Shown in pieces: positions 25,667 to 29,504 of a stretch of 41,942 nucleotides of DNA; the first letter of the stretch is position 1; each line of letters begins with the position of its first letter. The DNA is from Candidatus Gastranaerophilales bacterium (GTDB lineage Bacteria; Cyanobacteriota; Vampirovibrionia; Gastranaerophilales; Gastranaerophilaceae). The notes beneath the pieces were generated by a model that did no database searches, was not told where the DNA came from, and saw only the letters and a list, made by a program, of their open reading frames with translations. The position numbers were made by a program, and so were the translations under genes. The stretch covers positions 1-41,942 of the forward strand of contig CANQRH010000008.1 of the NCBI GenBank assembly GCA_947626225.1. The letters run 5' to 3'.

Positions 25667-25681
25667 TATAATAAGATTATG
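25667..25681 (+). promoter_or_regulatory. rex -10 box set for a leaderless start
   Basis: TATAAT (25667-25672), AAGATT, then ATG. Six bases between the -10 box and ATG place the first transcribed base at or next to the A of ATG; there is no Shine-Dalgarno. A good -35 is not visible. Confidence 0.55.
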
Positions 25682-26287
25682 AACATATCCGACAAGGTAA
25701 TAAATCGTTTAACCCTATATCATTGCATACTCACCGATTTTATCGAGAAAAATATAGAATACATTTCAAGCAAGCAAATTGCGGGACTTCTGCACATGGA
25801 TGATTCACAGGTCAGAAAAGATTTAAACCTTTTGAACAACTCGGGCAAATCCCGTATCGGATATATAGTAAAAGAGCTAAAAATTTCAATAGAAAAGACT
25901 CTCGGTTTCAAAAAAACTAAAAAAGCACTTATTGTCGGTGCCGGAAATCTTGGAACGGCAATTGCAAATTACGGAAATTTTACCGACTATGGTCTGCAAA
26001 TTCTTGCAATATTTGATAATGACAAAGAAAAAATCGGCAAAGTTATAAACGGGATTAAAATACAAAATATAGAAACCCTTAAACAAAGCGTTAAAAAAGG
26101 TGAAGCCGATATAGCAATACTTACCGTTCCGGCTAAATTTGCTCAATCAACGGCTGATTATTTGATTGAATCGGGTATAAAATATATTTGGAATTTTGCA
26201 CCGAAAGTTCTTTCAGTTCCCGATGACGTTCAGGTATGGAATGAAAATTTAATGGGAAACTTCCTGCAATTCACCTGCAATATCTGA
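25679..26287 (+). CDS. rex: Redox-sensing repressor Rex
   Basis: 202 residues. The winged helix (about 15-60: YISSKQIAGLLHMDDSQVRK) precedes a Rossmann domain with GAGNLG (87-92) and the acidic FDND. The typical WNFAPKVLSVPDDVQVWNEN segment and the swapped C-terminal helix follow. Rex senses the NADH/NAD ratio and represses fermentation genes. No clear Rex site (TTGTGA-N6-TCACAA type) was found by eye in this window, so its targets are elsewhere. The 3' end overlaps coaX by 39 bases in opposite directions. Confidence 0.95.
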   Translation: MNISDKVINRLTLYHCILTDFIEKNIEYISSKQIAGLLHMDDSQVRKDLNLLNNSGKSRIGYIVKELKISIEKTLGFKKTKKALIVGAGNLGTAIANYGNFTDYGLQILAIFDNDKEKIGKVINGIKIQNIETLKQSVKKGEADIAILTVPAKFAQSTADYLIESGIKYIWNFAPKVLSVPDDVQVWNENLMGNFLQFTCNI

Positions 26288-27037
26288 TTTGTTGATTTGA
26301 TAAAGATATCTTAAACCTTCTAATGTTAATGTGGGATTGATAAAATCAAAAGGTCGTTTCATATAATTGGCAATTAATCCGGAATATCCGCCGGTTGCGA
26401 CAATCACTGCTTTTTCACCAAGTTCGGCTTCACACTGTTCAGCAAGTCCGTCAATCATTGATGCGGTTCCTCTGATTACGCCGGATAAGATTGCATCGTT
26501 AGTATTGTGTCCAATAGCTTTTGGCGAAATAGCCACATCAATTCGCGGAAGCTTTGATGTAAACTTATTCAGCGCTTTCATCTGCGACATTAATCCCAGT
26601 GATATAACTCCGCCGATAAATTCGCCTTTTGCATTAACCACGTCAAAAGTTGTTGCGGTACCGAAATCTATAACGATAACGGGCTTTTTATACAGCACCG
26701 ATGCGCCTGCGGCATTTGCAATTCTGTCCGCTCCCGCTTCTTCGGGATTATCCAGACCGATTTTTATTCCCGTATTTATCTTTGAGGATAAAACAACGGA
26801 ATCAATTTTGAACGCATTATCAACAGCTTTTTTAAATTTGTCCGTCAATTCTTCCACAACGGAAGATATAATACAGCCGTCAATACAAAACTCTTTGCAT
26901 AAAGATTTTAAAAGGACTTCGTATTCTTCCGAAGACAAATCTTTATCCGATGCAAGCCTGAATTCTTCAACTATGGCTTCATCTTCAAATAAGCCTAATG
27001 TAATACTGGTATTTCCTATATCTGCCGTTAACAACAT
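26249..27037 (-). CDS. coaX: Type III pantothenate kinase
   Basis: 262 residues. It phosphorylates pantothenate, the first step of coenzyme A synthesis. ASKHA-fold motifs: DIGNTSITLG (6-15), GADR (102-105) and DFGTATTFD (124-132); GGYSGL lies near the end. The start is certain from the N-terminal motif, yet there is no normally placed ribosome binding site. Instead a 13-bp hairpin ends one base before the ATG and shows GGAG in its loop (see 27039-27068). The 3' end overlaps rex. Confidence 0.95.
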   Translation of the reverse strand: MLLTADIGNTSITLGLFEDEAIVEEFRLASDKDLSSEEYEVLLKSLCKEFCIDGCIISSVVEELTDKFKKAVDNAFKIDSVVLSSKINTGIKIGLDNPEEAGADRIANAAGASVLYKKPVIVIDFGTATTFDVVNAKGEFIGGVISLGLMSQMKALNKFTSKLPRIDVAISPKAIGHNTNDAILSGVIRGTASMIDGLAEQCEAELGEKAVIVATGGYSGLIANYMKRPFDFINPTLTLEGLRYLYQINKSDIAGELQEVSH

Positions 27038-27038
27038 A

Positions 27039-27068
27039 ATAGACTGATTTTCTCCAAAATCAGTCTAT
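27039..27068 (-). promoter_or_regulatory. Hairpin with GGAG loop directly before coaX
   Basis: On the minus strand ATAGACTGATTTT and AAAATCAGTCTAT form a perfect 13-bp stem with the tetraloop GGAG. One base later comes the coaX ATG. GGAG is the only Shine-Dalgarno-like run nearby but lies 14 bases from the ATG. No U-run follows, so it is not a standard terminator of the preceding gene. It may control translation of coaX or separate it from the small gene upstream. Confidence 0.7.
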
Positions 27069-27092
27069 ATTAAACAAAATCTTTTTGCAAAA

Positions 27093-27302
27093 TTAACCCA
27101 AAAATGCACCCTGAGTTTGTCCGCCTTCTTTACCGACAGTAAATGCACTGTTAAAATTATCGGGTAAATTATTTATAATTGTACCGAACCCGTTCATTGC
27201 AGCTCCGATTTGATCCCAAGGATTCTTCTTTTTGGCAGAACTTGCATACTGCGGTTTAGTAGCTGTTTTATCATCATATCCGATAGGTTCAATTCGTCCC
27301 AT
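27093..27302 (-). CDS. Hypothetical protein, 69 residues
   Basis: Not recognised. A good ribosome binding site (AAGGAGTATATT) precedes the ATG at 27302. The protein is soluble, Gly/Asn-rich, with a short lysine patch (SAKKKNPWDQIG) and a Phe-rich middle (NGFGTIINNLPDNFNSAF). It has no cysteine, signal or membrane helix. It may be a small lineage-specific protein. It lies upstream of coaX on the same strand, separated by the hairpin. Confidence 0.65.
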   Translation of the reverse strand: MGRIEPIGYDDKTATKPQYASSAKKKNPWDQIGAAMNGFGTIINNLPDNFNSAFTVGKEGGQTQGAFLG

Positions 27303-29060: not shown

Positions 29061-29198
29061 ATGTTTAGCCCGGAATTTATGAGATATTTAATTAATTATC
29101 AGAAATCAGATTTTACCCCCGAAGAATCAAAAAAAGAAATCAGATTTAAGAATAACAAAGGCGGGAAACTTGCCGAAGTTTTTGTAATTAATAAATAA
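29061..29198 (+). CDS. Very short protein, 45 residues
   Basis: ATG at 29061 with AAGGTGATTTTTA upstream; stop at 29198. The peptide is charged and probably folds (MFSPEFMRYLINYQKSDF, then KKEIRFKNNKGGKLAEVFVI). It has no signal or membrane segment. It is not recognised. The good ribosome binding site and non-random composition support expression, but the size makes this uncertain. It is divergent from sdaAB and followed by the 63-bp repeats. Confidence 0.55.
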   Translation: MFSPEFMRYLINYQKSDFTPEESKKEIRFKNNKGGKLAEVFVINK

Positions 29199-29220
29199 AA
29201 ATTATCTGCCCGGCGGGAGC

Positions 29221-29476
29221 TACAACAGTAAATTTGATATTAGAAGTCCCACAAATATCTGCAAATGGGGAGGGGTGCCTTCGGCAAAACAGTAAACAGA
29301 TATTATAAGTTCCACTAATATCTGCAAATGGGGAGGGGTGCCTTCGGCAAAACAGTAAACAGATATTATAAGTTCCACTAATATCTGCAAATGGGGAAAG
29401 TGGCTTCGCAAAAACAGTATACATGATATTATAAATCCCACTAATATCTACACAGTGGGGGAGTGGCTTCGCCACC
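29221..29476. repeat. Structured tandem repeat, 63-bp unit, about four copies
   Basis: The mark TCTGCAAATG (TCTACACAGTG in the last) starts at 29258, 29321, 29384 and 29447, exactly 63 bases apart. Each unit has a hairpin CAGATATTA / TAATATCTG (10-base loop), a G-rich stretch TGGGGAGGGG and a small TGCC-TTC-GGCA hairpin (GTGGC-TTC-GCCAC in the last). The first two full units are identical and the outer ones diverged. The array ends at a terminator. Confidence 0.9.
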
Positions 29477-29504
29477 AAAAAAAAACTCCGTCATATGACG
29501 GAGT
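29477..29504 (-). terminator. Strong terminator facing left, without an obvious gene
   Basis: ACTCCGTCAT / ATGACGGAGT form a 20-bp palindrome (29485-29504). On the minus strand it is followed by nine Us (29485-29477). No annotated minus-strand gene lies to its right before surE, which is on the other strand. Confidence 0.8.

Follow-up and report, generated by a model that had tools for sequence, protein, structure and literature searches.

A conserved RNA hairpin at the coaX start codon of Gastranaerophilales overlaps a predicted promoter and may insulate the gene from upstream transcription

The transposase leaders of IS10 and IS50 block the translation of impinging transcripts. In bacteriophage T4, the long early RNAs of gene e, which encodes lysozyme, fold over the ribosome-binding site and lysozyme synthesis is lowered by about 100-fold, whereas the late promoters, which lie within the 5′ strand of the same stem, yield RNA without that strand; the part of the source on which we draw groups soc, 49 and I-TevI with gene e (PMC3014915). 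The same source describes T4 genes 25 and 38 as having split ribosome-binding sites, in which a stem between the Shine-Dalgarno (SD) sequence and the AUG helps translation (PMC3014915). Here, we analyse a hairpin at the start of coaX in a 41,942-nt stretch of DNA from a Candidatus Gastranaerophilales bacterium (the window); our search of the open-licence PMC literature found no paper on this element. In the window, coaX occupies positions 26249..27037 on the minus strand and encodes a protein of 262 aa, whose original identification was confirmed by matches to Pfam Pan_kinase (E 1.9e-60) and, above the cut-off, to the NCBIfam model for type III pantothenate kinase. This enzyme is a vitamin B5 (pantothenate) kinase and its gene is a housekeeping gene for coenzyme A.

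The hairpin at the coaX start codon

The RNA hairpin (27039..27068, minus strand) comprises a 5′ arm at 27056..27068, a GGAG loop at 27052..27055, which is the sole SD-like sequence in the leader of the window copy, and a 3′ arm at 27039..27051, which bears the SD in most relatives. A single T (27038) separates the 3′ arm from the coaX ATG (27037–27035). Inspection of the minus-strand sequence bore out the original description of a perfect 13-bp stem, in which all 13 pairs are Watson-Crick, with the ATG following after one base and a spacing of 14 nt from GGAG to the ATG. The sense strand of a 111-nt region folds at −24.1 kcal/mol (z −2.95), with 2 of 200 shuffled sequences folding equally well, and the antisense strand of this region folds better than all 200 of its shuffles. 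Membership of a repeat family was rejected, as the hairpin pattern, with up to three mismatches allowed, occurs once in the genome, at coaX only.

Among the 33 genomes of the window's genus, its own included, coaX was detected in 31 (G005 and G013 gave no match), and a start-codon hairpin is present at all 31 loci; the contig carrying one of these, L011, begins 32 nt upstream. Two genomes represent other genera of the family: the hairpin is present in G033 (locus L032) and absent from G034. The distant coaX of G034 (L033) has a −10-like TAAAAT 6 nt before the ATG, possibly indicative of a leaderless mRNA, and its start codon is enclosed by a different stem. Named genome contigs, when scanned, gave 42 coaX loci, 38 of them from the lineage, most of these bearing titles of Candidatus Gastranaerophilales or Melainabacteria MAGs; all 38 have the hairpin, and 16 of them repeat leaders already counted above. 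The hairpin is conserved in 54 of 54 distinct coaX leaders from Gastranaerophilales MAGs (46 distinct over the last 41 nt), with fold energies, calculated for the last 36 nt plus 6, of −13.1 to −22.3 kcal/mol and a single exception, L092, at −9.1 kcal/mol. Order-level outgroup loci in which the start was found have no such hairpin just before it and mostly carry an ordinary SD. Loci L094–L097, which are of Alphaproteobacteria type, were left out. The alignment (A1) comprises 45 leaders and omits L011; L092 is included but was misaligned by MAFFT, its stem cells being gaps, and the promoter counts given below exclude it and use 44 leaders. In L092 the ATG directly follows the hairpin and there is no clear SD or TAnnnT.

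The original prediction proposed that conservation of the stem and compensatory changes be sought in relatives, and both were found. In A1, 95.9% of the cells of a 14-pair stem are paired, compared with 45–52% when the partner is slid by 1–3 columns. Both sides have changed in 10 of the 14 pairs, giving 79 double-changed cells versus 22.7 ± 5.2 in shuffled alignments, none of which reached 79 in 500 trials, and RNAalifold independently recovers 12 of the 14 pairs. The pair formed by columns 34 and 55 has undergone nine changes per side on the coaX codon tree, implying that double changes recur. The stem contains 47 G-U cells and a single A-C cell, or 12 versus 0 outside the four loop-proximal pairs, in which the 3′ G is fixed by the SD. 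This excess favours one strand, as would not be expected of a DNA palindrome, and implies that selection acts on the sense-strand RNA; the comparative evidence makes it close to certain that the RNA hairpin is a selected element. The SD (GAGG/AGGA) falls within the 3′ arm in 42 of the 45 aligned leaders. Of all the leaders compared, only those of the window species and its relative L003 have the GGAG loop, and the loop varies elsewhere. The tetraloop, originally taken as the key feature, is thus not conserved, and the SD usually lies in the 3′ arm.

An overlapping predicted promoter

In the 5′ arm, three letters, spaced as TAnnnT, are invariant across all 44 leaders. They define a predicted −10 element at the base of this arm, with the sequence TAGACT in the window (27062..27067, minus strand) and TACACT, TAAACT, TAAAAT, TAAGAT or TAGAAT among relatives. 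The first T is retained in 16 rows where its partner cannot pair, and pairing is therefore not the reason for its conservation. A TTG is located 16–18 nt upstream of the −10 in 39 of the 44 leaders, compared with a mean of 3.7 and a maximum of 12 when the 40 upstream bases were shuffled in 1000 trials; two of the remaining five leaders have TTTACA at 17 nt and it is absent from the other three. In the window the predicted −35 element is TTGCAA (27085..27090, minus strand), placed 17 nt before the −10. Upstream of the genome's ORFs, the distance from TTG to TAnAAT peaks at 17 nt (34 occurrences, versus 17 at 16 nt and 4–16 at other distances), for which the reverse-complement control gives 16. 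A simple consensus promoter scan did not list the coaX site because each hexamer has only four of the six consensus letters, as is the case for TAGACT against TATAAT. The case for a sigma-70-type coaX promoter that overlaps the hairpin, with its −10 in the 5′ arm, is strong, although the promoter is a predicted one. Sequence near-identical to the coaX −35 region, TTTTGCAAAA..TTTTTGTTTAATATA, is present upstream of a gene that we take from its sequence to be alaS (L053, about 1500), where it is without the coaX hairpin.

From the position of the −10, the 5′ end of the mRNA is predicted to be G 27055 (minus strand), in the loop. The original prediction held that a transcription start inside the stem would speak against a role for the hairpin; the conserved promoter predicts such a start, and a role is retained but in changed form. 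The predicted promoter-made leader would be about 18 nt long in the window, and 15–25 nt across the 44 leaders, and would be without the 5′ arm, so that only RNA begun further upstream would be able to form the hairpin. In the 44 leaders, the computed cost of opening the SD has a median of 10.5 kcal/mol for a read-through RNA of 140 nt and of 1.0 kcal/mol for the predicted mRNA, which supports the earlier suggestion that folding alters ribosome access. Where the loop itself is the SD, in the window species and L003, opening costs only 1.9 kcal/mol, and any block would have to be due to the stem that fills the space between SD and AUG. This space is long, with a median of 10 nt among the leaders and 13 nt for GGAGA in the window. 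Both points count against the model set out below.

Possible insulation and alternative readings

Upstream of coaX in the window is a codirectional small ORF of 69 aa with a good SD (27093..27302, minus strand), whose stop is separated by 55 nt from the coaX ATG and by 2 nt from the −35. It is fast-evolving, has a single copy in the genome and gave no Pfam or NCBIfam match. A codirectional small ORF directly precedes coaX at all 45 hairpin-bearing loci with upstream sequence, ending 35–100 nt from the ATG (53–66 nt in 43 of them), and its stop consequently usually adjoins the −35. Amongst 18 outgroup coaX loci tested, 17 of which had an identifiable start, the upstream ORF (at least 100 aa) is divergent in 11 and codirectional in 5, and one sequence ended too early; this contrast sets one clade against others and hence is not independent evidence. 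The hairpin of the window begins 24 nt past the stop codon of the small ORF, a separation that makes coupling to this stop codon unlikely. The Rho RNA-binding domain (PF07497) was detected in none of 39 genomes of the order (G000 and 38 relatives), with 9 of 14 controls positive, so the lineage seems to be without Rho. Given a small ORF upstream and a Rho domain that was not found, read-through from the small ORF into coaX is plausible. At its other end, coaX overlaps tail-to-tail by 39 bases (26249–26287) with a gene for a Rex-like regulator (25679–26287, plus strand), and several relatives likewise have Rex-like C-terminal sequence at the end of coaX.

We infer, from a coaX promoter and 5′ end that are themselves predicted, that this promoter and an SD-masking RNA hairpin occupy the same DNA and that the embedded hairpin probably insulates coaX from upstream transcription. 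Transcripts made from the promoter would start in the loop without the 5′ arm, leaving the SD free, and would be translated, whereas read-through RNA, for example from the small ORF, would carry both arms and fold, hiding the start codon, and would be poorly translated. The output of CoaX would then follow its own promoter, upstream transcription being shut out at the level of translation. If this is right, the −10 is under two codes, as DNA read by the sigma factor and as RNA that pairs with the 3′ arm, and the start site of a transcript determines if it is translated, at an ordinary gene for coenzyme A throughout most of a bacterial family. The arrangement would represent a compact natural design that insulates a gene from its neighbour where Rho is not found and, for an uncultured gut lineage, would provide a testable link from an uncharacterised small protein to CoA synthesis. 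A more tentative and rather doubtful extension is that transcription of the small ORF across the coaX promoter gives untranslatable coaX RNA and lowers CoaX synthesis. Such gating, if true, would give bacteria an equivalent of the undecoded long transcript, and in a lineage where Rho is not detected and read-through is not removed by other means.

As an alternative to insulation, coaX transcription might begin further upstream, as it would if the small ORF were cotranscribed, and the hairpin would then belong to a regulated leader and be opened by a protein, a metabolite, RNA or temperature. This would account for an SD, or its spacer, that is hidden in a conserved RNA stem adjoining the AUG, and RNA with both arms must exist, as otherwise the pairing would not be selected. 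However, no loop or binding sequence is conserved: the loop and stem vary in sequence except for the −10 and SD letters, so the translational switch originally envisaged finds no support in the form of a ligand or protein switch. The hairpins, which with one exception fold at −13 to −22 kcal/mol, are strong for a simple thermometer. When the window was scanned with Rfam models at the gathering threshold, a tRNA was the sole match and none fell at the hairpin, ruling out a known RNA family or riboswitch. A regulated leader would also leave the conserved −10 within the 5′ arm unexplained, and we consider it unlikely.

The hairpin could also be a terminator, or a 3′-end stabiliser, of the small-ORF mRNA that overlaps the coaX start by chance, which we regard as improbable too. 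No other strong stem separates the small ORF from coaX, TTTT precedes the ATG in some relatives, and a simple scan rates the window copy as terminator-like (13 pairs, of which three are G-C, with the tail TATGTTGTTA), at odds with the initial opinion that this is not a terminator. That opinion nevertheless agrees with the short T runs, the longest in the 8 nt past the stem being two or fewer in 34 of the 44 leaders and four or fewer in 43, and with a stem G+C content averaging 31%, versus 54% in the nine hairpins with T5 or more detected downstream of 671 long frames in the window genome; the perfect-helix finder used for these comparisons took a partial stem in three leaders whose stem has a mismatch or bulge. 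These features are not those of a classic intrinsic terminator, with its G+C-rich stem and T run, and make this reading a weak one, which moreover leaves unexplained why the SD is inside the stem and why the stem keeps its place directly beside the start codon. A terminator for the small ORF could act alongside insulation, a point that lends the reading slight weight.

It is very improbable that folding aids translation, either by presenting the SD in the loop or by shortening the distance from SD to AUG in the manner of T4 genes 25 and 38. The loop is indeed the SD in the window species, where the unfolded spacing is 14 nt, and the part of PMC3014915 on which we draw offers a precedent for the spacing, but the SD is paired in the 3′ arm in 42 of the 45 aligned leaders, it lies inside the stem-loop rather than having the stem between it and the AUG, and the loop is not conserved, which rules out SD presentation by GGAG. 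Finally, although a perfect inverted repeat spans the −10 and the predicted start, a DNA operator, at which a repressor dimer binds the palindrome over the promoter, is hardly credible, since the pairs co-vary while the sequence is not kept as conserved symmetric DNA, and the 47 G-U versus 1 A-C cells break DNA symmetry but preserve pairing of the sense RNA.

Similar elements were sought with a hairpin scan of all candidate starts of 762 ORFs of at least 80 aa, over 838,304 of the 1,591,473 bases of the genome. Seven candidate starts have an SD-containing hairpin ending 0–7 nt upstream, three of which also have a TAnnnT that lies within the 5′ arm or immediately precedes it; coaX is by far the strongest of these three and is the only clear case within this part (about 53%) of the genome. 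In two genes, which we take on the basis of sequence motifs to be rpiB (L104 8553) and asd (L107 2952), a short hairpin that masks the SD comes directly after a −10 and is weaker than that of coaX. Examined by eye in relatives, the rpiB hairpin is confined to the window genome amongst 28 loci with a start found (of 30), and the asd hairpin is present in 3 of 27 such loci (of 30). Neither hairpin is conserved in the genus, and the search yielded no general class of promoters with SD-masking hairpins in this genome. A perfect 8-bp hairpin also masks GGAGG one base before the ATG at L195 7572 (G000:C7 27573), in a gene belonging to an accessory tandem array of three similar genes. Separately, a 28-base palindromic repeat is present in the window at 29188–29478, with CAGATATTATAAGTTCCACTAATATCTG at 29297 and 29360; the related-looking CCCCACTGTGT occurs elsewhere in the genome (L100, about 16569), and the palindrome is perhaps a dispersed repeat.

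Comparison with known systems

The coaX stem-loop resembles an intrinsic terminator in its location, 24 nt past the stop codon of the small ORF, and differs in that the stem is A+U-rich and is not followed by a proper T run in most relatives. The likeness to the IS10 and IS50 leaders lies in the predicted logic, in which read-through RNA hides the ribosome-binding site and promoter-made RNA does not, but these leaders belong to mobile elements, which insert into foreign transcription units, whereas coaX is a fixed chromosomal locus. With T4 genes 25 and 38, as presented in the portion of the source used here, coaX shares a hairpin that adjoins the start codon and a distant SD; it differs in that its SD sits inside the stem-loop.

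The closest counterpart is T4 gene e, for which the same portion of the source describes a long RNA that folds a stem over the SD and AUG and is conserved among relatives. At coaX, a covarying stem likewise covers the SD and/or the AUG, with the qualification that the SD of the window copy is unpaired in the loop, and a predicted promoter resides in the 5′ strand of the stem, with the −10 in 44 of 44 leaders and the TTG of the −35 in 39. Gene e is distinguished, in that portion, by mapped transcripts, an effect of about 100-fold, the timing of its late promoters and its function in lysis, whereas coaX encodes a housekeeping kinase, has a predicted promoter of vegetative type and carries the element across most of a bacterial family. 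At coaX, moreover, the −10 hexamer is itself within the helix. Judged by its predicted anatomy, the coaX element would work like that of gene e, and nothing suggests common descent. What appears to be new is the overlap of promoter and hairpin at coaX, a gene e-like arrangement at a cellular housekeeping gene.
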